The notes beneath the pieces are model-generated. The model did no database searches, was not told the origin of the DNA, and was given only the letters and a program-made list of their open reading frames with translations. 46,662 bases of DNA from Bacteroides sp. An322 (GTDB lineage Bacteria; Bacteroidota; Bacteroidia; Bacteroidales; Bacteroidaceae): assembly GCF_002161765.1 (NCBI RefSeq), contig NZ_NFIN01000024.1, forward strand, positions 1 through 46,662. The letters are read 5' to 3'. Shown here in pieces: positions 23,062-46,662 of the stretch. A program made the position numbers and the translations under genes. Positions within the stretch are counted from its first letter, which is position 1; every line of letters begins with the position of its first letter.

Positions 23062-23907
23062 CTACAACCCTATATAACCTTCTTGATCATACGCTTTTCG
23101 CTCACGATGAATTAAATCTATTAATTGCTGTATTTCGCACACATCCGATTTAATATCCTTAAAACGGCAATACTGCTCATCGTATCTTTTGCTGGAGCCT
23201 GACTTCAAGCGAGATTCAATATCGCCCGGAATTAAAAACGAAGCACGTTCTTTACCCAAATATTGTTGAAAATCAAAAAGAAAGATGTGTATTCCAGCCA
23301 AATCAAAATCACCGAAGTGAAGATAGTGGTTGGAAATCGTACAGAGCCATCTTCTAAGATCAGTGGATTGTGGGTACCGAGACACGAAGAGCACCCTATC
23401 AGAAAGCTTATGCGCTTGAAGATATTCCTCAAAGAATACTCTTTGCTTACGAATCATCCTAAAATTTTCCATATTCTCAATGCCCGTCACAACCACGTCT
23501 TCCGGAATGGCAAACTTCTCCCAGTCTGAGACAAAAAGGAAACTTCCTTCCTGCGGATTTACCACAAAAGGCTTTCCATCAAGAAGACACTCAATCGGTT
23601 CATAGCTGTTTACGGGGAATCCTGGACAGGAACGAACCATAACAAGTTTGGAGTTCCCTGTTTCCGCCGCCATTGAAGCACGGGAATCCGAAGCATTTAC
23701 TTCAAGCATGCGATAGTTCTCATCCTTATCTATAAGAAATCTTTTTAAAGCCTCGGTGTCACGGGCACGATATGATTTTCTTGAGCCACGGGAAGTAACC
23801 AGCAGCATGCCTTCAGCCAGCAGTTCGTCACGCAACTTGCTGTTTAGCTTTGAGCCCGCAACTTGTTCTCCCGCTATTAACGCCTGTATAGATGCACTTA
23901 CGACCAT
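23062..23907 (-). CDS. jetD: Wadjet JetD-like TOPRIM nuclease
   Basis: The 281-residue protein is the last gene of the four-gene SMC operon. Its C-terminal half has the TOPRIM signature: an acidic strand VVTGIENMENF (E144 or E147) and HFGDFDLAG with D200 and D202. In Wadjet systems JetD is the topoisomerase VI-like nuclease that cuts circular plasmids after loop extrusion by the SMC complex. The N-terminal part looks like a winged-helix region (LRDELLAEGMLLVTSRGSRK). It starts 12 bp after the JetC stop. Length is on the short side compared with the well-studied type I JetD. Confidence 0.8.
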   Translation of the reverse strand: MVVSASIQALIAGEQVAGSKLNSKLRDELLAEGMLLVTSRGSRKSYRARDTEALKRFLIDKDENYRMLEVNASDSRASMAAETGNSKLVMVRSCPGFPVNSYEPIECLLDGKPFVVNPQEGSFLFVSDWEKFAIPEDVVVTGIENMENFRMIRKQRVFFEEYLQAHKLSDRVLFVSRYPQSTDLRRWLCTISNHYLHFGDFDLAGIHIFLFDFQQYLGKERASFLIPGDIESRLKSGSSKRYDEQYCRFKDIKSDVCEIQQLIDLIHRERKAYDQEGYIGL

Positions 23908-23919
23908 ACGATCTCCAAC

Positions 23920-26900
23920 TTATTTTATTCGTTTCAACAATTTTTCTACTCTCGTCTTCACTCCATGTTTGCTCAAGAGATAGGTATACCGGTAGTCGTA
24001 AGGATTGTATGACGTCGGCGAACTGTTGATGAGATAGATATTCCGTGAATTGGCAAATTGCAGAATTCCTTTGATATTGTTAGGATGCAAGCGTCCTATC
24101 TCATCCATCATGCAGTGTACGATGAAATCACCGCTCTTCCGGGCTGCCTTTTTCTTAAAGACATTGATGAGCATGATATTGACCATTGCCTTTACAAGGA
24201 TGTCTGTCCCATCCGAACCTACATTGTTGATACGCTCAACCCAGTTTGTATCGTTGTCGTTCTCCTTCACACGGAACTGCAAACGGAAGGCATCGCCTAA
24301 GGATACTGCCGGGCGATTGGGTTCATTTTGCAACTGATGAGACAGGCTCTTCAGGTAATCCACAACCTTACGGTTCACCTCATCCCGGTTATCACTGGAG
24401 AAAAGATTCAGTTCGCCAATGGAGAGCGCATTTTCCACCGCATAATCGTGGATAGATATGAGCAGTTGCATGAGCTTGTCGGATGATTCATTCGCTCTGA
24501 GTTCAATACTCTTGATTACTCCCGCAAAATTCTTTTCCACGAAATCCCGGTTTATATCAAGTATCACCCCGTCTACGTCCGACCTGCGCTTCATCAGTGA
24601 GCCAATTTCTGTCGAAATACGTCCCAAGATATCTTTATAATGTTCGCTGGTGCGTCTGCGGAACTCCTCGATTTTATTGTTGTCCATGAAGTCCTGCAAA
24701 TCCACAGCAATCTGCAGATAATCATTGTCTGTTACAGGCATTGTATTAAAATGGAACGCATTCTGAGGCTTGAAATTACGGTTGAAGCTGACGACGATGT
24801 CTTTCAGCTTGTCGATTGATTCGCGCTTTTGATTAACAGTACCTCTAAGCTGACTCAATAGTTGCTGGCAAGACAATTCTGTATTCATCGTGTTGCCGTC
24901 AGCGAGGAACGTATCAGGCACCAAATGTTCATTCTCTACCATCTGGCGGTAAAGTTCCAATCCTTCTCTCCTATATGTCAGTTCCTTAAGAAGTGTTTTC
25001 TGACGCTCTTCCATTTCCTTACACTTTTTCCCGATACGTGTCCGCCTGTCTTCATAACGCTGGCGCAACATGAATAGCCGCTGCTCAATAGCCTTGATTG
25101 CCTTTTTGATTTCCGGTTCCCTGGCGAAAAGGTTCTTTTCCGCATCACGGTATCTGATAACTATCGGACGCTCTCTATCAATTCTTTTCAATTGTTCCAT
25201 CAGACCTTCCAAAGCCCTGCGATATTGTTCGAGCAAAATGGTATCAACACCTTTACCCGCAAGTTCCGCTTTCTGTTGTTCATCAAGCTGTCTCTTTTGA
25301 GCCGCAAACTCTTTTCCACGCCTTTCCGCTTCTGACTGTTGTGCTTCTTTAAAAATGCGCAACTCCTCATCAAGTGCCTTAAAAGCCTTGTTGAATGACG
25401 AATCGAGTTCTTTAAGGTCTTTCTTATTCTTTGATTCACTTTTCTCACGAGCATCCTTCTCCGATTGCACTTTCAGCAATGCTTCGTTGAAAAGACGTTC
25501 ACGAATCTCTTTTTCCTGAGCAATCCGCTCCTGCTCTTCCATTTCCAGCTGATGTCGACGGTTTTGCAGATCCTGCCGTTTGACAGGAATCTGTTCTTCT
25601 TCGACCTTTAATAATGTAGCTTGCTGACGAAGAGGGTTGAGTCGAGCCGCATATTTCTTGCCAAGTTTAGCTATTTCTTCCTGAAGGGTTATGGGCAATT
25701 GCATGAGCCGGCGGTTAATCTGCCGTACCCGTTCTTCCAAATCCTTTTTCTCCAATCTATACTCGTCAGGCGTGCGGTGCACGGATGCGATATTATCCAA
25801 GTCCAACTTTACGCCATACAGGCTGCCGGACGCTACGTCCAACTGAGGTTCAATCCCTTGCGCATACAGAATCCGTTCCTCGTCAACCACTTTGCCTATC
25901 GTGTTTTCCCAGCCTTCCTTATTCTCGCAGAGCCATTTGTAAAAAGAGCCGTCCAAACGGGCAAGCAACTCATCAATCTTCGCAATTTGTTCACGAATTT
26001 GCGTACGGTCAGCCTCAAGACGTTCTTGCTCATGCTGAGAGGCCTGTTTCATTTCCGACTCTTTCATCTCATACTCGGCAGTAATCTGAGCAATCTGGCT
26101 TTTTACGGCAGTCTGCCGGGCAGTATTTTCTTTCTCAGTCCAATCCAACTGCAAAAGCCGTTCATCTATCCGCTTTATTTCATCAGCCAAAGGATGCCAC
26201 TGGCGGAGTTCCTTCAGCGCATTGTCGGCTCTGTTCTGTTCAGCCAACAACATTTGCAGGCGTTCGTCAGATTCATGCCGCCAGCTGTTAAAAGCATCCA
26301 TAACCTGATTCCTATTCTTTGCGCGTTCCTCTTCCAGCCTGTTGCGTTTTATCTGAAGTTCTGCCTGTTTCTGATAATATGCCTCCTTTTGAATGTTCTC
26401 GAATGCTTGACGTGCATTCTCCAGTTTACCCCTTGCGATGTTGTACTTTTCCTCTATCGATGCATGGGTTTTCAATAAATCATCCAACAATGTTTGTTTC
26501 TCTGCCGCTTCCTGCTTGATAGCAGTCTCTCGTTCGGCAAGAGCGAGTATAGCCTCAATGCCGTTTGCCTCGAAATCCTTTCTTGCCTGTGCTATTTCTT
26601 TCAGTTTGCTTCGATTAGCACCAAGTTCTTGATTGAGCGAGTCTTTTTCTTTTTCATATTCTTCCGTAAGTTCTTTCTCACGTTTACGTTCTTTCTCAAT
26701 GTCGGCTTTCACTTTCTCCGCTTCAACCTCTAAAAGCGGCAGGCGCTGTTCACTATAAGCTACAGCATGATTCAGCATACGCCATACATCCTGCAATTGC
26801 TGGTCGAGCGCAACAATTTTACGGCCTTGTTCCGCTATATTCAATGCCTGTTGCCGCACCGGATAAATCCCGTCACGTGTCTGACGGAACCAACAGTCTA

Positions 26901-27570
26901 TCTCGTCATATTCCCGTTCGAAGTCCGTTACAAGCCGCCTGTAGGTTTGCAAATCAATCGGCAGTTCTTCATCCGTCATAGACTGTATAATCGTGTTCTT
27001 TACAAAGTCCGCGTCTAATTTCGTATTCAGGAAAACATTCTGGATGCTTCGTGGAATGTTCTGATAATGCGAACTCTGCACCAATGCATAACGTGTATAT
27101 TTATGGTCATGCGTATTGCCGAAAATAATGTCCTTGAACATCACACCCGATTCCACTCTCGTGGAAACAGCGATATTCCGGTCTATGCGTTCCCGAATCT
27201 TCACCCAGTCACTCAATACCTGATTATCGTCGGTAATAAGCCACTCACGCTGATAGGGCGCATCTATGAACCGCCATGAAGCACGTCCCTGATACCTGCT
27301 GACCAATATGGTATATGCGCCATTGTCACGCATCACCTCATAAAGGATGTAGGAGTTTGACTGGCGGAAATAGAATTCATCAAACGGCTTCTGTCCCTGC
27401 TGGATGCCCAGACGCTGCTTGTCGGCATTATAGAAAAACAGCAATGCTCTCAATACGGTACTTTTACCCACACCCTGCGTTCCTGTGAAATGCACATTGC
27501 CATCTACGGAAATCTCCGCGTATGGAATGTTGGCGCTATTTATAAAAATAATCTTATTCAGGCACTTCAT
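23920..27570 (-). CDS. jetC: Wadjet JetC-like SMC/MukB-type ATPase
   Basis: The 1216-residue protein has Walker A GTQGVGKST (30-38) next to the N-terminus, two long coiled-coil arms rich in Glu, Lys, Arg and Gln (about 240-440 and 600-900) and a C-terminal head with a Walker B region IVHCMMDEIGRLHPNN (about 1150-1165). This is the SMC/MukB design: a hinge-folded dimer that uses ATP to extrude DNA loops. In Wadjet it senses circular plasmids. It overlaps the JetB gene by 17 bp, an operon sign. The head motifs look intact, so the protein is probably active. Confidence 0.85.
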   Translation of the reverse strand: MKCLNKIIFINSANIPYAEISVDGNVHFTGTQGVGKSTVLRALLFFYNADKQRLGIQQGQKPFDEFYFRQSNSYILYEVMRDNGAYTILVSRYQGRASWRFIDAPYQREWLITDDNQVLSDWVKIRERIDRNIAVSTRVESGVMFKDIIFGNTHDHKYTRYALVQSSHYQNIPRSIQNVFLNTKLDADFVKNTIIQSMTDEELPIDLQTYRRLVTDFEREYDEIDCWFRQTRDGIYPVRQQALNIAEQGRKIVALDQQLQDVWRMLNHAVAYSEQRLPLLEVEAEKVKADIEKERKREKELTEEYEKEKDSLNQELGANRSKLKEIAQARKDFEANGIEAILALAERETAIKQEAAEKQTLLDDLLKTHASIEEKYNIARGKLENARQAFENIQKEAYYQKQAELQIKRNRLEEERAKNRNQVMDAFNSWRHESDERLQMLLAEQNRADNALKELRQWHPLADEIKRIDERLLQLDWTEKENTARQTAVKSQIAQITAEYEMKESEMKQASQHEQERLEADRTQIREQIAKIDELLARLDGSFYKWLCENKEGWENTIGKVVDEERILYAQGIEPQLDVASGSLYGVKLDLDNIASVHRTPDEYRLEKKDLEERVRQINRRLMQLPITLQEEIAKLGKKYAARLNPLRQQATLLKVEEEQIPVKRQDLQNRRHQLEMEEQERIAQEKEIRERLFNEALLKVQSEKDAREKSESKNKKDLKELDSSFNKAFKALDEELRIFKEAQQSEAERRGKEFAAQKRQLDEQQKAELAGKGVDTILLEQYRRALEGLMEQLKRIDRERPIVIRYRDAEKNLFAREPEIKKAIKAIEQRLFMLRQRYEDRRTRIGKKCKEMEERQKTLLKELTYRREGLELYRQMVENEHLVPDTFLADGNTMNTELSCQQLLSQLRGTVNQKRESIDKLKDIVVSFNRNFKPQNAFHFNTMPVTDNDYLQIAVDLQDFMDNNKIEEFRRRTSEHYKDILGRISTEIGSLMKRRSDVDGVILDINRDFVEKNFAGVIKSIELRANESSDKLMQLLISIHDYAVENALSIGELNLFSSDNRDEVNRKVVDYLKSLSHQLQNEPNRPAVSLGDAFRLQFRVKENDNDTNWVERINNVGSDGTDILVKAMVNIMLINVFKKKAARKSGDFIVHCMMDEIGRLHPNNIKGILQFANSRNIYLINSSPTSYNPYDYRYTYLLSKHGVKTRVEKLLKRIK

Positions 27571-28111
27571 CTTCGTTTGCTATTTGAATGATTTCAACCA
27601 ATTCCTCGGCATAACGGAATGCCGAAGTAATCTTAAAAGTCTCATCAAGTTCGCTTACACATTCTGCAAAGCCCATATTTTGCATTTCCTGAAGCAGCTT
27701 GTTGACTATCTCGATACGAGACCCCGCTCCGTATTTCTTGAACAAATGGTTTGCCTTCTCCTTCAATTCGATATCCAAACTTATCTGTTCCATCAAATGA
27801 CTCTTACGAAACTGGTATCCGGCAGTACATGACTGATTATAACATTTCAGGAAGTCCAGATAGTCAAGCCATTTTGAAAAACTGTCCAATTTCTGCTCTA
27901 TCGTCTGCTTGCTCTCTCCTATCCGTGAGAAATAGAAATAACCATCCCCAGATTCCAGTTGCAGGCCGATTTCCCGGAAATAATCGGTATAATCCTCCAC
28001 ATTCTCCTCGATGTCCTCATACAAATGACGAACAGCGGTATCTGTGCTGTCTACCGAAAGGAATTCGCCCCGACTTAAACGCTCGTATATTCTTTGTGTA
28101 TTATTCCGCAT
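27554..28111 (-). CDS. jetB: Wadjet JetB-like protein (MukE/DUF4194-like)
   Basis: The 185-residue protein is small and mainly charged, with a winged-helix look (RIYERLSRGEFLSVDSTD, then YFREIGLQLESGDGYFYFSR). The latter stretch, a beta hairpin ending in YFYFSR, is the typical signature of DUF4194/MukE-type SMC partners. It bridges JetA and JetC. The gene overlaps JetA by 11 bp and JetC by 17 bp, so translation is probably coupled. Assignment rests on both the pattern and its position between the other Jet genes. Confidence 0.75.
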   Translation of the reverse strand: MRNNTQRIYERLSRGEFLSVDSTDTAVRHLYEDIEENVEDYTDYFREIGLQLESGDGYFYFSRIGESKQTIEQKLDSFSKWLDYLDFLKCYNQSCTAGYQFRKSHLMEQISLDIELKEKANHLFKKYGAGSRIEIVNKLLQEMQNMGFAECVSELDETFKITSAFRYAEELVEIIQIANEDEVPE

Positions 28112-29300
28112 AAATTATAGGATATTCAATGTCTTGATAAATCGCATATTCTCCCGTCATCCGGCATTCATCAGGATGCAAGATAACCAACTGGCAGAAG
28201 AGAGCCGCATAATCTTCAATACTACGCTTTTCTTTATAGTCATACCTCAAGATGAATTTAAACAAATCATAGCTTGATGCTAAAAACGCATTCCATACTT
28301 CCGCGGCATCCACCTCCTTCAGCTGTTGAATATGCTCTTGCAAATCCTCTTCTGTCAACGGACCGGCTTCTGTCCTTATGGTTTTCTGTGTGCCATTACG
28401 CTCAGCAATCCGTCTCAGCAACTTAACAACCTGTTCATTTTCTCTCAGCATTTCTAAAGACAGACGAACCTTGTTATATTGGCGTGATTCCATCCAAAGA
28501 GGATTCCTTTCTTCCAGCACCTGCACAAGGTTTGTATCAGTCTTGATAAGCAGCTGATCTTGCAGATATTTCAATTTCCGGATCTTTTTGTAAAGTTGAT
28601 TTTGCTGGTCAATCTGATTGATGTAGAAAATAATCTGTCTGTCAATCTCCATTAACGCATGATAAGCTTCAACAAAATCATGTTTCACATCGCTACAGGT
28701 CTTTGCCATGTGCGGATCGTTAGCCATGATAAAAAATGCATGCTCATTATCCATCAACTTTTCACATTCACGTATCATGGCACGAATGCTATGACTCTTT
28801 TCATCCAGATTCTGCAGTTTCTTCTTTTTAATGATATAATTGGGTTCTTGTTTATAGGCATTATCCATATTACGCTTCAAGTCTACCACATTCTTCAAGG
28901 TCCTGAATCCGGTCTTCTTTAAAAGTTGCCGTACATTATCCTGATATCCGGCCTTACGGTTAGAGTTCGTCTCTTGCAGGAAATATCCGATATACTCTTT
29001 CAAAGTGTTGATGCACTCCTGTACGCTCAATACGCTAATTTCCTCGTTGACATTCAGCACTTCCTCAAAGAAATTCAAATAATCACTCTCTATTTCAACC
29101 ATATTGCCAGACTCCACCAGTACGCCATATTCTATCAACTTTCTCAACCTAACTTCATTTCCTCCGACAAGGTCAATGGCAAGCCCCAGCGGAAACTTCA
29201 TGAGTTTCCGTTTCTCAAACATCTCACTCAGCAACTTTTGCTCACGCGAAAGTGTTTTGGTAAGTTCTTCTATACTCCTAAAATGCGTCAGGACATCCAT
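28101..29300 (-). CDS. jetA: Wadjet JetA-like protein (kleisin/MukF-like)
   Basis: The 399-residue protein heads the four-gene SMC operon. It is helical and acidic, with a winged-helix-like N-terminus (LAIDLVGGNEVRLRKLIEYGVLVE, about 39-62) and a central coiled-coil region (KKKLQNLDEKSHSIRAMIRE, then YINQIDQQNQLYKKIRKLKY), as expected for the kleisin subunit that links the JetC heads. Single-protein similarity is weak, so the call depends on gene order JetA-JetB-JetC-JetD. The start at 29300 is ATG. No convincing promoter box is visible between it and the ATPase remnant. Confidence 0.7.
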   Translation of the reverse strand: MDVLTHFRSIEELTKTLSREQKLLSEMFEKRKLMKFPLGLAIDLVGGNEVRLRKLIEYGVLVESGNMVEIESDYLNFFEEVLNVNEEISVLSVQECINTLKEYIGYFLQETNSNRKAGYQDNVRQLLKKTGFRTLKNVVDLKRNMDNAYKQEPNYIIKKKKLQNLDEKSHSIRAMIRECEKLMDNEHAFFIMANDPHMAKTCSDVKHDFVEAYHALMEIDRQIIFYINQIDQQNQLYKKIRKLKYLQDQLLIKTDTNLVQVLEERNPLWMESRQYNKVRLSLEMLRENEQVVKLLRRIAERNGTQKTIRTEAGPLTEEDLQEHIQQLKEVDAAEVWNAFLASSYDLFKFILRYDYKEKRSIEDYAALFCQLVILHPDECRMTGEYAIYQDIEYPIIYAE

Positions 29301-29557: not shown

Positions 29558-29630
29558 TACACCCTCAGGGACTCGAACCCTGGACCCACTGATTAAGAGT
29601 CAGTTGCTCTACCAACTGAGCTAAGAGTGC
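29558..29630 (-). tRNA. tRNA-Lys (anticodon CUU)
   Basis: The 73-nt minus-strand sequence folds as a cloverleaf with acceptor strand GCACTCT, D-arm GCTCAGTTGGTAGAGC, anticodon arm ACTGA-CTCTTAA-TCAGT (anticodon CTT), the T-arm with TTCGAGT and discriminator A at 29558. CCA is not encoded. It is identical to the copy at 29677. Its 3' end faces the accessory region. Confidence 0.95.
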
Positions 29631-29676
29631 ATCCATAACTATAAATTGTCAAATTTCCCGTGCAAACCCTCTAAAG

Positions 29677-29749
29677 TACACCCTCAGGGACTCGAACCCT
29701 GGACCCACTGATTAAGAGTCAGTTGCTCTACCAACTGAGCTAAGAGTGC
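29677..29749 (-). tRNA. tRNA-Lys (anticodon CUU), second identical copy
   Basis: Same 73-nt sequence as 29558-29630, separated from it by 46 bp and on the same strand. It lies first behind the promoter at 29773-29804, so the two are probably cut from one transcript. Confidence 0.95.
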
Positions 29750-38059: not shown

Positions 38060-38857
38060 ATGAAACTAAAACTACTCCTTTTCGCTATAGCTGTTTCAGC
38101 TTTTTTTACAGGATGTACATCTTATAAAGATGTGCCTTATCTGCAATATCCGCAGTTGGTGAATGAACTTGGAAAAGAAATTCCGCTTTACGATGCACAA
38201 ATCATGCCGAAAGACTTGCTGAGCATCACAGTCAATACATCCGACCCACAGGCTGCTGCACCATTCAATTTAACGATGCAAACGGCTATAAACTTGTCAC
38301 AACCCAATAGCTACGTCACCTCACAACCAACCCTTCAACAATACTTGGTAAGCAACGAAGGAGACATTGATTTTCCGGTATTAGGACGTCTGCACGTGGG
38401 CGGAATGACTAAAAACGAAGCTGAAGACATGATTCGTGAACGGCTTAAGCCCTACCTGAAAGAAACTCCGATTGTTACTGTCCGCATGGTAAACTACAAA
38501 ATATCCGTATTGGGCGAAGTGGCACACCCCGGAACTTTCACCGTCAGCAACGAAAAAGTAAATGTCCTCGAAGCACTTGCCATGGCAGGCGACATGACGG
38601 TCTACGGTGTCCGTACCAATGTCAAGCTAATCCGCGAAAGTGCCCAAGGGAAACAAGAAATTATCGAACTCGACCTGACCAAAAGCGACATCGTGCTCTC
38701 TCCTTATTTCTACCTGCGCCAAAACGATGTGCTTTATGTGACTCCCAATAAGACCAAAGCGAAAAACTCGGATGTGGGCAATACGACGACAGTCCTCTTA
38801 TCTGCCACATCGGTCTTAGTCTCCCTCGCCAGTCTGTTGGTAACCATTTTAAAATGA
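38060..38857 (+). CDS. Polysaccharide export lipoprotein (Wza-like)
   Basis: The 265-residue protein has a lipoprotein signal (MKLKLLLFAIAVSAFFTGC, Cys19). The Poly_export domain follows: IMPKDLLSITVNT, NEGDIDFPVLGRLHVGGMT (about 95-113) and SLBB-type VRMVNYKISVLGEVAHPGTF. The C-terminus ends in a membrane helix (VLLSATSVLVSLASLLVTILK). In the Wza/Wzc system this protein forms the outer-membrane channel for capsule or exopolysaccharide. It lies 21 bp before the tyrosine kinase gene. Confidence 0.85.
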   Translation: MKLKLLLFAIAVSAFFTGCTSYKDVPYLQYPQLVNELGKEIPLYDAQIMPKDLLSITVNTSDPQAAAPFNLTMQTAINLSQPNSYVTSQPTLQQYLVSNEGDIDFPVLGRLHVGGMTKNEAEDMIRERLKPYLKETPIVTVRMVNYKISVLGEVAHPGTFTVSNEKVNVLEALAMAGDMTVYGVRTNVKLIRESAQGKQEIIELDLTKSDIVLSPYFYLRQNDVLYVTPNKTKAKNSDVGNTTTVLLSATSVLVSLASLLVTILK

Positions 38858-38878: not shown

Positions 38879-41314
38879 ATGATTGAAGAACAAAACATCG
38901 ACGAACTGAACAACGAAGAAAGCATCAATCTGTATGCAATCTTGTTCAAATACCTCGCCTATTGGCCCTGGTTTATCGTAAGTGTAATAGTATGCGTCAT
39001 ATTAGCATTTCTCTATTTACGCTATCAGGCACCGGTATACAACGTCACAGCTGCCGTATTAATTAAGGAAGAAGAACAAAAAGGAGGCAACTCTGCCGCC
39101 TCCCCGCTGGCTGCCATTCAGGATTTGGGTATGCTCTCTATGACCAGCAATTTCGACAATGAAGTGGAAATCCTCCATTCGCGTACCTTAATAAAGAAAG
39201 CGGTCAACGAATTGCACCTTTATACCAATATTGTAGAAAACCGTGTAACCGGATACGACATTCCGCTTTACAAAAATTCTCCGGTAGACGTGTTTATGAC
39301 ACCCGAACAAGCCGACAAGCTGAAAATGCCGGTTACTTTGAAAATGACTTATACCCCTACCGGCAAACTGACAGTCCACGCTGAATACATGGTAGATACA
39401 GAAATCGAAGAATTAGACAAGACGTTTTTGAAACTGCCTGCAGCCTTGCCCACTCCGGTAGGAGTCATTAACTTCACTCCGAACGACTCGATTCAAGGGT
39501 TGCCGAAAGAAGACGTCACACTGACTGCCTCTATCAGTTCGCCTACAGCTACCGCACAAGGCTATATGGGAAGCACGTCTGTAGAAGCAACTTCAAAAAC
39601 AACAACCATTGCCCAAATCAATGTGCAGAATACCAATAAGCAACGAGGAGTCGATTTCATCAATTGCTTAGTGGCTTTCTATAACCGCGATGCCAACGAC
39701 GAAAAAAACGAAGTGGCACAGAAAACTGCCGAGTTCATCGAAGAGCGTATCGGCATCATCAACCGCGAATTGGGTACAGCCGAAACCGAACTGGCTGATT
39801 TTAAGCAACGTTCGGGACTGACTGACTTAACCAGCGACGCCCAATTGGCTCTATCGGAAAGCTCCAGATACGAACAACAACGCATGGAAAATGCCACGCA
39901 AATCCAGTTGGTAGAGTTTTTGCGCAATTACATCTTCGACCCGAAAAACAACGATGAAGTTATCCCTTCCAATGTCGGATTGCAAGACCAGAACCTGACT
40001 TCCGCCATCGACCAATACAATACGATGATTATCGAGCGGAACCGCTTGTTGCGCACTTCTTCTGAAAACAACCCCGCTGTCATCAACATGAATACGGGAA
40101 TCGAAGCCATGCGCCACAGTGTACAGACTACGGTAGCCAGCGTATTGAAAGGATTGAACATCGCCAAGACAGACATCGAGCGTCAAGCCCGTAAATACGA
40201 AGGACGTATCAGCAATGCCCCTTTGCAAGAAAAAGAATTCCTAAGCATTGCCCGCCAACAAGAAATCAAGGCTGCCCTCTATACAATGTTGCTGCAAAAA
40301 CGGGAAGAAAACGCCATTACGCTTGCAGCCACAGCAAACAACGGACGCATCGTCGAAGAGCCTTTGGCAGACAGTGCTCCGGTATCACCCAACAAAAAAA
40401 TCATCCTGCTGGCTGCCCTGGTCATCGGTTTGGCAATTCCCGTTGCCATTATCTACTTGCGCAGTTTGCTAAAATATAAAATCGAGAACCGTGAAGACGT
40501 GGAAAGCATTACCTCGGTTCCGCTTCTTGCCGAACTACCCCATTGCAAAATGCCGGAAACCGGTTCTATCGTGATACGGGAAAACAAGAACGAAATCATG
40601 GAAGAAGCGTTCCGGCGGTTGCGCACCAACTTGATTTTCATGTTGGAAAACAATCAGAAAGTGATTCTTTTCACTTCTACACAACCCAGTGAAGGAAAAT
40701 CTTTCGTTGCAGCCAATACCGCAGTCAGCCTTGCTTTCTTGGGCAAGAAAACCCTAATTGTCGGTCTGGATATCCGCAAGCCCCGGTTGAGCCGTGTGTT
40801 CAACCTCCAGCACCATGCCAAAGGCATCACCAATTACCTTTCCGACCCGGAACACGTAGACCTTGCCGATGTGATTCAGCCTTCGGGAATCAGTCCGAAT
40901 CTTGACATCATGGTAGGTGGAGCCATACCGCCCAACCCGACCGAACTGGTGGCACGCGAAATTCTCGACCGCACCATGGAACAGTTGAAGCAACGTTATG
41001 ACTACATCATCCTGGATACAGCGCCGATTGGCATGGTGACCGATACGGCTATTATCAGCCGGATTGCCGATTTGTGTGTATATATTTGCCGTGCCGATGT
41101 GACTCCAAAAGCCGGATTCCGCTACATCAACCTGTTGCGCGACGAAAAGAAATTCCCGAAACTGGCAACAGTCATCAACGACATTGACATGAACAAACGT
41201 AAGAACAGTTACTACGGTTACGGAGCCAAATACGGATACGGAAGCAAATATTACAGCTACGGAAGCTATGGCTACGGATATGGATATAGCGACGAAAAGA
41301 AAAACAAAAGATAA
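38879..41314 (+). CDS. Polysaccharide biosynthesis tyrosine autokinase (Wzc-like)
   Basis: The 811-residue protein has a Wzz-type N-terminus with a membrane helix (about 34-54), a large periplasmic part with coiled coil, a second helix (about 508-526) and a cytosolic BY-kinase domain. Its Walker A is TQPSEGKS (601-608), followed by the A' motif [11 protein letters not shown] and the B motif IILDTAP. The tail, about residues 780-806, holds 12 Tyr in a Gly-rich run (SYGYGYGYS) as autophosphorylation sites. It polymerises and exports capsule together with the Wza-like gene upstream. Confidence 0.9.
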
Positions 41315-41328
41315 ATAAACCACCTAAA

Positions 41329-42576
41329 ATGAAAGACTTAAAGATAGCCGTAGCCGGCACAGGCTACGTCGGTTTGAGTATCGCCACCCTGCTGAGCCAA
41401 CGCCATCAGGTAACAGCAGTTGACGTTATTCCTGAAAAAGTAGACTTGATAAACCAACGCAAGTCTCCCATTCAGGATGAATACATCGAAAAATACCTTG
41501 CTGAAAAGGAACTGAACCTGACAGCAACCCTCGATGGAACCAAGGCATACAGCGATGCGGATTTTGTCGTTATCGCTGCCCCTACCAACTACGACCCGGT
41601 AAAGAATTATTTCGACACCAGCCACGTAGAAGAGGTGATTGAACTGGTTAAGCGGGTCAACCCGAATGCCATTATGGTCATCAAAAGCACAATTCCGGTG
41701 GGCTATACCGAAAATATCCGCAAAAAGATGCAAAGCGACAACATCATCTTTTCTCCGGAATTCCTTCGCGAAAGCAAGGCTTTGTATGATAACCTCTACC
41801 CCAGCCGTATCATCGTAGGACGTCCCGAAGGCGACCAACGGCTAGACGAAGCGGCTCATACCTTTGCAGCTCTCCTTCAGGAAGGAGCTATCAAAGAAAA
41901 TATCGACACCCTGTTTATGGGACTGACCGAGGCAGAAGCCGTAAAGCTTTTTGCCAATACCTACCTTGCCTTGCGGGTGAGCTATTTCAACGAACTGGAC
42001 ACATACGCCGAAATGAAAGGGCTTGACACGCAAGCCATTATCAACGGAGTCTGCCTCGACCCCCGCATCGGAACGCATTACAACAACCCTTCGTTCGGCT
42101 ATGGAGGCTACTGCCTGCCTAAAGACACGAAACAGCTTCTTGCCAACTATGCCGATGTCCCCGAAAACCTGATTCAGGCTATCGTGGAAAGCAATCGTAC
42201 CCGAAAAGATTTCATAGCCGACCGCGTCTTGCACAAAGCCGGATATTACGACTATTACAACCGGGGAGACTACAATCCCAACGAAGAACGCCAATGCACT
42301 ATCGGCGTGTACCGGCTGACCATGAAATCAAACTCCGACAATTTCCGCCAAAGCAGCATCCAAGGTGTCATGAAACGCATCAAGGCAAAAGGCGCCATTG
42401 TCATCATCTACGAACCGACCTTAGAGGATGGAAGCACGTTCTTCGGAAGCAAGGTAGTCAACGATTTAGACACATTCAAACGCCAAAGCCAGGCAATCAT
42501 AGCCAACCGGTATGATGCATCTTTGGACGATGTAAAAGAAAAAGTCTACACCCGCGACATATTCCGCAGAGACTGA
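41329..42576 (+). CDS. ugd: UDP-glucose 6-dehydrogenase / nucleotide-sugar dehydrogenase
   Basis: The 415-residue protein has the Rossmann motif GTGYVG (10-15), the KSTIPVGYT loop, the substrate-binding FSPEFLRES and the catalytic cysteine C262 in [10 protein letters not shown]. It oxidises UDP-glucose to UDP-glucuronate with NAD+, supplying capsule precursors; UDP-ManNAc dehydrogenase is less likely. It is somewhat longer than the common 388 residues, with a C-terminal extension. It follows wzc by 14 bp, and a strong terminator (42664-42706) ends the run. Confidence 0.9.
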
Positions 42577-42663
42577 CCCACACTCCTCCTGTCAATCAGT
42601 CAGTAAAGTACTGACAAAAATGCATACGGCTTCATCGCCCGACGAAGCCTGCTTCATCAGCCC

Positions 42664-42706
42664 ACGCATTAGGATTCATCAAGCAACGAACCCTAATGCG
42701 TTTTTT
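42664..42706 (+). terminator. Rho-independent terminator after ugd
   Basis: ACGCATTAGG (42664-42673) and CCTAATGCGT (42692-42701) form a 10-bp stem, then TTTTTT to 42706. Confidence 0.85.
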
Positions 42707-42748
42707 GTTGCATATATAATTCCAACTCTCAACTTTCAATTTTCAAAT

Positions 42749-42781
42749 TTTGAAGTTTTCAATTTAATTCATTACCTTCGC
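42749..42781 (+). promoter_or_regulatory. Promoter of ATPase/TOPRIM pair 1 (TTTG, 20 bp, TACCTTCG)
   Basis: TTTG 42749-42752 and TACCTTCG 42773-42780. The 26 bases 42756-42781 are identical to 44643-44668 in front of pair 2, and both lie in an AT-rich stretch that contains CAACTTTCAATT. Confidence 0.7.
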
Positions 42782-42837
42782 AATTAGAAAATGATTTTCG
42801 CAATTCATTTCTGAAAAATAATAAAAGCAGAAACAAA

Positions 42838-44028
42838 ATGAAACATCTGATAGTCAAGCATATCGGACCATTAGACCAAATTGACATCGAATTGAAAAAA
42901 GTCAACGTCATTATCGGTCCGCAAAGTTCGGGAAAAAGCTGTGTTCTCAAATTGGCATGTTATTGCACATGGGTAGAGAAACGTATCGAATTGACCCAAA
43001 AACCAGAGTATTTCCAAAAAGAAAATGTATTTATCAACGAATTGGTCCGCTTCCACAAACTAAAAGGCTATATCAAACCCGACACATACGTGGAATATGA
43101 GTCAGACTACATGCATTTTTCATACGATCATTCAAATCAGAAATTCCAATTCAACTGGAAAGATGCCCGCTGGGAATATACACGTTCTAAAGTAACTTAT
43201 ATTCCGGCAGAGCGGAACATGGTTGCTGTTATCCCCAATTGGTTCGATGTTAAATTGGCTGATGACAACATCCGTGATTTTATGTCCGATTGGGAAACAG
43301 CACGCAAGGCTACCCTAAACCAATTGGATGTACTTAATTTGGGCATTGCATATCATTACGAAGAATCATCCCATGCTGATAAAGTAAGAATCGAAAACGG
43401 CGAAGAACTGGATTTTACCAATACGTCAAGCGGATTGCAATCGCTTATCCCGTTATATGTACATCTCAACTATTTGAATAAGTTACAGTATGAACAAGAA
43501 AAAAACGAAAGTGTAAAAAGTGGATTAGAAAACCTGCTTTTGCTCACAATAATATATAAAGAACTTTTCGAACAAGAGACTAAGAAAGTTATAGCATCTG
43601 GAAAATCCCCGGAACGAGTATACTTCAATTTAACAAACAATTCTTCTGAACAGGTTGGCATTCTATTTGCTAACCAAGCATCTACAAATCGGTGTAAGGA
43701 AATACTCTCTAATTATACAAGCAACCATTTCTGCGACATCTTTCTGGAAGAGCCGGAAGAAAACCTCTTTCCTCCTACTCAGACGCAACTCATCAACTGG
43801 TTACTTGAAATTACCGAAGGACCTCATGCCAGCAATTTATCCATTGCGACCCATAGTCCTTATGTCCTTACCTCGTTATTAGAAAAACAGGATATCGACT
43901 TAGGACTATTCTTTACCGGAATAAAAGAAGGGAAATTAAGTGTTAAAACCGCAACAGAAGTCGATATGCAAGAAATCTATGATTATGGTGTGGATGCATT
44001 CTTTAACCTTGAAACTTTTGCAAAATAA
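42838..44028 (+). CDS. ABC/OLD-like AAA ATPase, pair 1
   Basis: The 396-residue protein has Walker A GPQSSGKS (27-34), a signature-like TNTSSGLQ (194-201), Walker B CDIFLEEPEENLFP (299-312) and an H-loop SIATHSP (335-341). This is the ABC-type ATPase of OLD/RecF-like and PARIS AriA-like proteins, which sense phage or nucleic acid and control a partner effector. Its stop (TAA) overlaps the ATG of the TOPRIM-like gene by one base (44028). It is unlike the second ATPase except in motifs, so it is not a recent duplicate. Confidence 0.8.
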   Translation: MKHLIVKHIGPLDQIDIELKKVNVIIGPQSSGKSCVLKLACYCTWVEKRIELTQKPEYFQKENVFINELVRFHKLKGYIKPDTYVEYESDYMHFSYDHSNQKFQFNWKDARWEYTRSKVTYIPAERNMVAVIPNWFDVKLADDNIRDFMSDWETARKATLNQLDVLNLGIAYHYEESSHADKVRIENGEELDFTNTSSGLQSLIPLYVHLNYLNKLQYEQEKNESVKSGLENLLLLTIIYKELFEQETKKVIASGKSPERVYFNLTNNSSEQVGILFANQASTNRCKEILSNYTSNHFCDIFLEEPEENLFPPTQTQLINWLLEITEGPHASNLSIATHSPYVLTSLLEKQDIDLGLFFTGIKEGKLSVKTATEVDMQEIYDYGVDAFFNLETFAK

Positions 44029-44640
44029 TGAAAGATTTAGATATCATCCCGGAATGCTATATAGACACCAACCTGATTGAGACAATACTCAACACAAAAG
44101 GTTGTTACACAGAAGGAGTCAACCATCAAAAGGGATGCAACACGGTAGTTAAAACCATGAATGACCCTAAAAAATGAATTTGCTTTAGGCATAGTAGATG
44201 CTGACAAACGACAACCTTCGTATGTAGAAGCATGCGCCGTCATCGCCCGAACCGAACATATCACCTTGCTCAAACACGGTAAAGATAATCACTATTTTCT
44301 TCGTATATCCCCAGCTATGGATACCTTTATACTATCCTGCGTAAAAGAAGCAAACATCCAATTAGAAGAATACGGATTAACCTACGACCTAAAATCATTT
44401 ACACGAATAACAAAAGAAGTAGAATCTAAGAATGACACCAGATTCAAAAAACTATTCAAACAGCTTCAACATACAAAAGAAATGATTGCCTTAGGTAATG
44501 TATTAGCTTATCTAAAATCGCATAAATATGATGCAGAAGAAGAGAAATTGAAAGAACTTTTTATGTGTAAAATGAAATCACAATGTATTTTCAGCCCTAA
44601 TTTTCAACTTTCAATTCCGTTTTCAATTTCCAATTTTTGA
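44028..44640 (+). pseudogene. TOPRIM-like partner of pair 1, split by an A6 shift
   Basis: ATG 44028 opens a 49-codon frame MKDLDIIPECYIDTNLIETI ending at TGA 44175-44177. The +1 frame from 44161 continues EFALGIVDADKRQPSYVEAC to 44640. Removing one A from the A6 run at 44169-44174 joins the two into about 200 residues. The first part has acidic residues (E9, E18) and NHQKG, the second the DxD of IVDADKR, so the shift splits a likely TOPRIM active site. The last 13 residues (NFQLSIPFSISNF) are encoded by the next promoter region. It may be a mutation, a phase-variable or programmed shift, or a sequence error. Confidence 0.6.
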
Positions 44641-44668
44641 AATTTTCAATTTAATTCATTACCTTCGC
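44636..44668 (+). promoter_or_regulatory. Promoter of ATPase/TOPRIM pair 2 (TTTG, 20 bp, TACCTTCG)
   Basis: TTTG 44636-44639 and TACCTTCG 44660-44667: the same boxes and 20-bp spacing as at 42749. The leader to ATG 44777 is about 105 nt and contains no gene. Confidence 0.7.
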
Positions 44669-44776
44669 CACCGGAAATACCAAGATAAGGGTTTACCTCT
44701 CCCTAAAGCACAATGGGACTGGTAACCGCGAAGCGTGCCCGGACGGGAAGTAAATACATACAAAAAAGAGCAAAAT

Positions 44777-45838
44777 ATGATAAACAACATTCATATACAA
44801 AACTTTAGAGGCATCAAAGACTGTACAATAGATGACCTAAAACGAATCAATCTTCTTTTAGGCTACAATAATTGTGGAAAGTCGTCTGTTCTCGATGCTT
44901 TGTTCCTCTATACCAGCTCTACAAATCCCCGCTTCGCAATGACTATCAACTGGGTACGGAGATATATGCATAATGGTCCGGATAACATGATTTTAAATTT
45001 CTATCAACTGAATCCGGACGCCACTATACACCTGAACGGCATTTATGACAACGAAACCAAACGCAGTGTGGCAATTAAATACCACGAAGAGCTTTCGCCT
45101 ACCCTGCAAGTCCCGCGAAATAATGTCTCTGCCGGAAATGACAAAATTTATACTTTAAGCATGAAGACCACAATAGAACATACGGATAAATCTACAGAAA
45201 CATACGAAACAGCAATCCAGGCGTCAAGCTCACATCCAGAAAATACAGTAGTCAAAGATGCGCCTAAAACCTACAAAGAAACATTGCACTGCATCTACCA
45301 GACTGCTTCAGATCCCTATCATGACAATTCCCAACTTTATTCCGTTATCTTGAAAAACAAACAAGAAAAGTTTGTCATAGATATATTAAAAGAAATAGAA
45401 CCTAATCTGAAAGACATTGTACTTGCAGACGGAGAATTGCTTGTAGACATGGGGTTTGACAAACGCATTCCCATTCAGGTGTTAGGTGACGGCATACGCA
45501 AACTGCTTTCACTCATTATCAGCATCTACTATTGCAGCAACGGCATCCTGCTCGTTGACGAAATAGACAATGGCATACATTACAAATCAATGCCTGTCAT
45601 GTGGCGTGCCCTCCTCAAAGCCGCCAAAGAATACAACGTACAACTCTTTGCCACCACACACAACATTGACTCTCTACAGACCCTCTGTAAAGTAGTGGAA
45701 GAAAAAAAAGATTCATTGTGGGAAGAAAATATAAGAGTCTACACTTTACGCAAAACAAGTGATGACACACTAAAAGCCATTAAGAGCACTTATAAACAAT
45801 TCAATCACTTAATCAATCAAGAAATTGAAATAAGATGA
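44777..45838 (+). CDS. ABC/OLD-like AAA ATPase, pair 2
   Basis: The ATG at 44777 begins MINNIHIQNFRGIKD, the usual opening of RecF/OLD-type ATPases; an upstream frame to 44735 lacks this. The 353-residue protein has Walker A GYNNCGKSS (29-37), signature LGDGIRKLLSL (236-246), Walker B GILLVDEIDNGIHY (256-269) and H-loop ATTHN (292-296), all apparently intact. Its stop overlaps the partner's start (ATGA at 45835). It probably gates or targets the TOPRIM-like partner. A role in phage defence is inferred from family resemblance. Confidence 0.85.
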   Translation: MINNIHIQNFRGIKDCTIDDLKRINLLLGYNNCGKSSVLDALFLYTSSTNPRFAMTINWVRRYMHNGPDNMILNFYQLNPDATIHLNGIYDNETKRSVAIKYHEELSPTLQVPRNNVSAGNDKIYTLSMKTTIEHTDKSTETYETAIQASSSHPENTVVKDAPKTYKETLHCIYQTASDPYHDNSQLYSVILKNKQEKFVIDILKEIEPNLKDIVLADGELLVDMGFDKRIPIQVLGDGIRKLLSLIISIYYCSNGILLVDEIDNGIHYKSMPVMWRALLKAAKEYNVQLFATTHNIDSLQTLCKVVEEKKDSLWEENIRVYTLRKTSDDTLKAIKSTYKQFNHLINQEIEIR

Positions 45839-46491
45839 TACGGATTTTCATAGAAAGCGGAGTAAATAAGGCATTAGATAGAGGCAAAGAGACAACGAAT
45901 GAACAAGATTTCGTAGAAAAGTTTATCTTATATCATTTCCCTCAGATGAGATTAGAAGATTTTGAAATCATTGGTACTGGTGGAAAAGATAAATTAGGAA
46001 ATACTGCACTTAAGTTTATTGAAAACACAATAGACGGAGGTACAAATATTGTAATTTTTGATGCCGATACATCGAGTAACAAAGGCGGATTCTCCAAAAG
46101 AAAAGCTGAAATTCTCAAAGCAAAAGAAGACTACAACATCGAATTCGACCTATTCTTATGGCCCAACAATCACGCAGATGGTGATTTTGAATCAATGTTA
46201 CTGCAAATAACCCAACATGAACATCGAGGTCTTATAGATTGCTACCGGAAGTATGAAAAGAGTGTCACACGGCTAGATCGAGGAAAAAAACTCTATCAAA
46301 CCTCAGGAAGAAAAGGCGAAATATTCAGTTACATTGCATCTTTAAGAAAAACCAGAAAAGAAAATGAAAAGTTCGGCAAGGGATATTGGGCATTTCAAAA
46401 TCCCAAATACTGGGATTTAGATTCAGCATATTTGCAACCGTTAAAAGAATTTCTAAAGAAATATCTTACAAACTGTAAGCATTCAATTTAG
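45835..46491 (+). CDS. TOPRIM-like protein (DUF3226 type), partner of pair 2
   Basis: The 218-residue protein has the TOPRIM-like acidic pattern: IFIESG (E7), NEQDFVEKF, GTGGKDKL (47-54), and NIVIFDADTS (D76, D78), then FLWPNNHADGDFESML. This is the design of DUF3226/OLD-family TOPRIM nucleases, which cut DNA or RNA with two metal ions. The gene starts within the ATPase stop codon. The last 16 residues are basic (LKKYLTNCKHSI). Its intact state contrasts with the split partner of pair 1. Confidence 0.8.
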   Translation: MIRIFIESGVNKALDRGKETTNEQDFVEKFILYHFPQMRLEDFEIIGTGGKDKLGNTALKFIENTIDGGTNIVIFDADTSSNKGGFSKRKAEILKAKEDYNIEFDLFLWPNNHADGDFESMLLQITQHEHRGLIDCYRKYEKSVTRLDRGKKLYQTSGRKGEIFSYIASLRKTRKENEKFGKGYWAFQNPKYWDLDSAYLQPLKEFLKKYLTNCKHSI

Positions 46492-46510
46492 GACTATAAA
46501 ATAGAATGCT

Positions 46511-46662
46511 TATCTTCGCGGCAGTTCAGCTTGGGATTTCATCGGAACTTTTAAAAAAAATCTTTAACGGGTGCAGGGACTATGTGAATATGGTTCCGGC
46601 AAGAATCGCTTTGGCTGCAAGCCAGTGTTAATTTTCAAAACTAATTTTTAACATAACTCGAT
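46511..46662 (+). promoter_or_regulatory. Promoter box and leader of a gene beyond the window
   Basis: TATCTTCG at 46511-46518 resembles the -7 box. The 144 nt after it contain only short frames (for example ATG 46596, 13 codons) and no gene start I can support. It may be the leader of the rest of the capsule locus. Confidence 0.4.

Follow-up and report, generated by a model that had tools for sequence, protein, structure and literature searches.

The closest described relatives of the genes reported here join an OLD-type ATPase to a TOPRIM nuclease. In the phage anti-restriction-induced system (PARIS), AriA holds the TOPRIM protein AriB, and phage trigger proteins release AriB, upon which tRNA is cut (PMC12409363, in excerpt). 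OLD nucleases of classes 1 and 2 and the Gabija protein GajA carry ATPase and TOPRIM in a single protein, and GajA adjoins a helicase gene (PMC10568477, in excerpt). Near bacteriophage exclusion (BREX) systems, dyads couple ATPases of the OLD-ABC (ATP-binding cassette) type to TOPRIM, PD-(D/E)XK, HNH or PIN nucleases, and effector swapping on such ATPases has already been described as a general principle (PMC12839542, in excerpt). In assays, furthermore, AAA/TOPRIM_OLD pairs behave as a toxin and its neutraliser, and AbiLii has been named the toxic effector of AbiL (PMC10440598, in excerpt). Here we describe four plus-strand genes of Bacteroides sp. An322 (contig NZ_NFIN01000024.1, 42838-46491) lying downstream of wza-wzc-ugd and arranged as two ATPase/partner pairs, to which we will refer as pair 1 and pair 2; the whole stretch analysed, 46,662 nucleotides long, is called the window.

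We consider it reasonably probable that these genes form two separate modules, each combining an OLD-type ABC ATPase with a predicted two-metal TOPRIM nuclease in a PARIS-like, phage-triggered defence, of which pair 2 is likely working and pair 1 probably inactive, at a site near capsule export that repeatedly takes different OLD-type ATPases. The basis is computed throughout: gene order, overlaps, a promoter-like pair of sites, family matches, conservation of acidic residues, conserved pairing, and recurrence of ATPases near wzc. In such a module, the ATPase would hold its partner nuclease inactive and would sense infection; the nuclease would then be released, cut nucleic acid and stop the cell, its target perhaps being host tRNA, as for AriB, or DNA, as for OLD. 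The genes of the two pairs and the sites preceding them are the following:

42749..42780, plus strand: promoter-like site 1, TTTG-N20-TACCTTCG (by consensus match only)
42838..44028, plus strand: pair 1 ATPase, 396 amino acids, OLD-type ABC ATPase, PADLOC type PDC-M29A (5.9e-57; AAA_15 above cut-off)
44028..44177, plus strand: initial part of the pair 1 partner, open for 49 amino acids up to a stop, ECYIDTN motif (reading frames, match to relative P0003)
44161..44640, plus strand: remaining part of the pair 1 partner, open in a different frame, from the DxD motif to the C-terminus
44636..44667, plus strand: promoter-like site 2, TTTG-N20-TACCTTCG (by consensus match only)
44777..45838, plus strand: pair 2 ATPase, 353 amino acids, AbiLi / PDC-M38A type (AbiLi 3.9e-59; PDC-M38A 4.6e-56)
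45835..46491, plus strand: pair 2 partner, 218 amino acids, DUF3226, TOPRIM-like, AbiLii / PDC-M38B-like (Pfam, PADLOC, structure model)

The genes of pair 1 overlap by one base at 44028 (TAATG) and those of pair 2 by four (ATGA; ATPase 2 ends at 45838 and its partner starts at 45835), the start of ATPase 2 being taken as the ATG at 44777, with a GTG at 44735 as a possible alternative. Pfam AAA_15 lies above its cut-off in both ATPases. The initial annotation had described two consecutive pairs of an ATPase and a small partner with 1- and 4-base overlaps; gene order, overlaps and AAA_15 agree with that description, but the small protein assigned to partner 1 is not intact. Its remark that the two ATPases share motifs only holds, as BLASTP finds just the Walker A stretch (13/37 residues, E 0.001). 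Each pair is preceded by one copy of a 57-nucleotide direct repeat, the copies starting at 42734 and 44621 and being 88% identical, and each copy contains a promoter-like site, in line with the twin promoters proposed earlier. The pattern TTTG-N18-22-TAnnTT[TC]G is the Bacteroides promoter consensus, relaxed by one base after the sites had been seen; on the plus strand of 42561-46662 it occurs just twice, at 42749 and 44636, against a mean of 0.02 in 300 mononucleotide shuffles, and over the whole window 8 times on the plus and 4 times on the minus strand. In 8 further genomes of the genus, stretches of 27-49 bases from the leader of pair 2 (~44690-44759) turn up at other places.

For both partners a TOPRIM fold is supported by the AlphaFold models, in which it is predicted, and the earlier suggestion of TOPRIM-like partners is upheld by these models, Foldseek alone being weak. 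The resemblance to PARIS consists in an ABC ATPase and a TOPRIM effector (the fold here predicted) in separate, overlapping genes, and in the predicted principle of hold and release. Identity with PARIS was rejected: AriA is the best model for neither ATPase (192 bits for PDC-M29A, 5.9e-57, vs 40 bits for AriA, 7.9e-11, in pair 1; 199 bits for AbiLi vs 88 bits for AriA in pair 2), and neither AriB in PADLOC nor DUF4435 in Pfam matches partner 2 or the intact relatives of partner 1. AriB presumably belongs to the DUF4435 family. The split OLD or PARIS-like architecture proposed initially is thus retained as an analogy and dropped as PARIS membership; of the models proposed for comparison with it, DUF3226 matches partner 2. 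With class 1/2 OLD nucleases and GajA the pairs share the predicted TOPRIM fold and, in partner 1, matching metal-site acids, the correspondence to BpOLD being read from range starts and residue order; they differ in placing ATPase and TOPRIM in separate genes. Gabija was discarded as an identity, since the genes are separate and no open frame large enough for a helicase lies between the two pairs or in what remains of the contig behind them. The coupling of OLD-ABC ATPases to nucleases is shared with the dyads near BREX, whereas the excerpted text on these dyads makes no link to the partner 1 family or to capsule loci (PMC12839542).

Pair 2 is close to the described AbiL system of Lactococcus and is not new. 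ATPase 2 matches AbiLi over its full length (model positions 1-340 of 340), and partner 2 contains DUF3226 (35.9 bits against a Pfam cut-off of 27) with weak PADLOC matches to PDC-M38B (8.6e-7) and AbiLii (7.8e-5, 21 bits); the organization in two overlapping genes is a further likeness to AbiL and PDC-M38. The AbiLii match is weak and PDC-M38A nearly equals AbiLi (189 vs 199 bits), so the exact name is not fixed. Judging from its open frames, pair 2 is likely the working module in this genome. A pair of the same type lies at a capsule edge in genome G042, between a gene resembling BT4734-like_N and wzx/glycosyltransferase-like genes (all by eye), and in G038 a pair 1 type and a pair 2 type lie ~46 kb apart. 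In another genome of the genus (G004:C138, L166), an ATPase that is AbiLi-like by eye and matches AAA_21 is found near the end of an IS66 element.

Pair 1 combines a known ATPase type and a known fold with a partner family that has no model, in a pairing absent from PADLOC. No row at cut-off or recurring between relatives was obtained for this family in Pfam (window piece and five intact relatives), PADLOC 2.0.0 (window piece and eleven intact relatives) or NCBIfam (window piece and nine relatives). No literature on the partner 1 family, PDC-M29 or a wzc defence slot was found in a search that did not extend to most subscription journals or to the most relevant survey. A scan of genome contigs located the family at no fewer than 143 sites in public genomes, 80 of which were kept as the neighbourhood set; by record title, nearly all are Bacteroidota, with few others including a Chlorobi record. 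An OLD-type ATPase stands directly upstream of the partner gene in 78 of the 80 (gap -11 to +8), the other two (L045, L067) being truncated at contig starts. These ATPases split into a set of 43 that closely resemble ATPase 1 (E <1e-80) and a set of 35 that are divergent and mostly shorter (5e-13 to 1e-22). The presumed metal-binding acids (E, DxD and further ones) are conserved at five positions in all 75 relatives compared (75/75).

ATPase 1 is of the M29A type; a full PDC-M29 system was rejected for pair 1, there being no M29B match in the window piece or in eleven intact partner 1 relatives. Next to distant ATPase 1 relatives (L012-L019), other small genes follow in place of the partner 1 family, and among the next genes of four of them, two match PDC-M29B (L015 1.3e-61, L012 3.7e-6) and two, those of L013 and L014, do not. 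The M29B protein has a CDGxL..ELK motif, PD-(D/E)xK nuclease-like by eye, and that of L015 has no Pfam match. Since some relatives carry the partner 1 family and others PDC-M29B, the ATPase 1 lineage pairs with at least two effector families.

In the window itself, the partner 1 frame from 44028 ends after 49 amino acids, and the remainder (44161-44640) lies in a different frame; the window DNA matches P0003, an intact relative, in these two frames over its residues 1-44 and 50-182. Intact relatives have 178-196 amino acids, while two close ones (P0006, 115; P0007, 102) share an N-terminal part and end differently. Pair 1 is therefore probably inactive in this genome, as its partner gene is frame-broken though its ATPase gene is open. 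Another genome of the genus (G038, L005) has the partner gene spread over two frames, and L047 and L091 have internal stops in it; the ATPase frame is open in all four loci, which come from draft assemblies in which sequencing error is possible. In the 78 loci, the ATPase frame upstream stays open for 274 amino acids or more (L048 the shortest, seemingly shortened in frame; the rest were not individually checked). Broken partners beside open ATPases fit, in small numbers, an ATPase that restrains a harmful effector. The same order would be expected from a toxin-antitoxin or selfish maintenance unit, in which the ATPase neutralises a TOPRIM toxin and the pairs persist by addiction or by hitch-hiking in a variable capsule locus, with no protection from phage. 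The overlapping or abutting genes, the strict pairing and the toxin-neutraliser assays on AAA/TOPRIM_OLD pairs (PMC10440598, in excerpt) speak for it, but AbiL and defence candidates are the families matched best, and further defence-candidate ATPases are found close to the same wzc genes; we regard it as an unlikely account of the pairs, and one compatible with the defence reading.

The placement next to wza, wzc and ugd noted initially is confirmed by the Pfam domains of all three genes:

38060..38857, plus strand: wza-like polysaccharide export gene (Pfam Poly_export 4e-18)
38879..41314, plus strand: wzc-like chain-length/tyrosine-kinase gene (Pfam Wzz, GNVR, AAA_31), anchor of the slot test
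41329..42576, plus strand: ugd, UDP-glucose/GDP-mannose dehydrogenase gene (Pfam UDPG_MGDP_dh N, central and C domains)
46514..46662, plus strand: 3' end of an IS66-type element, inside which the contig breaks; multicopy in many genomes of the genus

Pair 1 also lies near wza-wzc in G027 (L061), together with an HEC-02A-like ATPase and a further M29A-like ATPase, and in G055 (L063), together with a full PDC-M56A/M56B pair. A reverse transcriptase/maturase-like frame (by eye) is seen at 12564-13970 of L061, between the ATPase genes and wzx. For the slot test, wzc served as the anchor: its 38 best matches among 61 genomes of the genus were taken (E<=3e-203, window excluded), together with up to 8.5 kb of flanking sequence on either side. 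At E<1e-15, 8/38 loci contain OLD-type ATPases, 15 altogether and every one encoded on the same strand as wzc; five of the loci have an ATPase, of one of three different types, that starts 15-187 base pairs after wzc. At this threshold, neither 40 loci with a second Wzc class nor 40 regions drawn at random contained any (p 0.002 vs each set; 7e-5 vs both pooled, 8/38 vs 0/80). The threshold was fixed after a first look, and at 1e-4 the counts are 9/38, 2/40 and 1/40, respectively; counting only loci with at least two ATPases gives p 0.05. Some positives have related wzc genes (L183/L184 96%, L203/L204 88%, L210/L211 81%), leaving at most about six independent lineages. Two loci, L200 and L210, prompted the test and contributed ATPases to its query set; without them the result is 6/36 vs 0/80 (p 7e-4). 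A slot for OLD-type ATPases at wzc is thus supported within this genus and not beyond it. The layout, which the initial annotation could not place among described systems, is unusual, yet four other loci of the genus offer parallels, with two or three genes for OLD-type ATPases no further than 8.5 kb from wzc.

Several results weigh against the defence reading. Neither partner model has a PDB match in Foldseek at E<=0.001, and partner profiles gave no good match to PDB sequences (best E 0.2 for one, none for the other). Pair 1 is uninformative on the phenotype of this genome because its partner is broken. In other genera of the family, all 20 wzc loci examined are negative, even at 1e-4, and at least two polysaccharide marker classes occur near the partner 1 family across Bacteroidota in 9/71 loci vs 2/40 random ones (p 0.17). 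The last two results, with the broken frame of partner 1 and the IS66 remnant at the contig end, would also suit a scene of decay, namely a commonplace AbiL system beside a decaying pair, with no joint function and placed in a capsule locus by chance. The slot counts within the genus, the uniform strand of the 15 ATPases and the conservation of the partner 1 family in its many places argue against it, and we judge it improbable.

A role of the pairs in the capsule itself and not in defence, such as regulating capsule phase or switching at the DNA level, is very improbable. The shared strand and the short distances behind wzc would accord with such a role, as would a partner 1-family pair of Butyricimonas synergistica (L035, 7006-10278) situated shortly before a NusG-type gene (UpxY-like by eye) and ugd; however, the slot is filled by ATPases of several different types, 51/71 partner 1 loci have no polysaccharide marker in reach, and most wzc loci (30/38) lack such an ATPase. 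In other Bacteroidota (L098, L097, L082, L086, L033, L021), partner 1-family pairs are seen by eye amid glycosyltransferase, wzx and sugar-nucleotide genes, the enrichment not being significant.

Elsewhere in the window (23062-29300, minus strand), a four-gene MksBEFG/Wadjet-like operon constitutes another defence candidate. Its proteins include a MukB-like DUF3584 (5.8e-51), an MksE (5.2e-40) and one ending in DUF7281 (1.2e-6), and its fourth gene (28101-29300) has no Pfam or PADLOC match; the PADLOC matches to JetC (8.6e-6) and JetD (3.3e-5) are both weak. Two tRNA genes (29558-29749) adjoin it.

More tentatively, and with considerable doubt, the capsule-export loci of the genus may reserve a place immediately after wzc, on the same strand, for OLD-type ATPase/nuclease pairs that are exchanged rapidly, so that an intracellular suicide defence would be co-expressed, and perhaps co-switched, with a phage-filtering capsule; pair 1 would then be a PARIS-like system in its own right, widespread in Bacteroidota, with a TOPRIM family of its own and an ATPase that elsewhere is paired with another nuclease. 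Annotation based on Pfam, PADLOC 2.0.0 or NCBIfam would miss the partner 1 effector because these hold no model for it, and the conserved two-gene module now comes with candidate catalytic residues for mutation, namely E9, D60 and D62; for pair 2 the candidates are E7, D76 and D78. From the point of view of capsule biology, the locus offers a testable link to defence: cells with a given capsule may also be primed with a matching nuclease defence.
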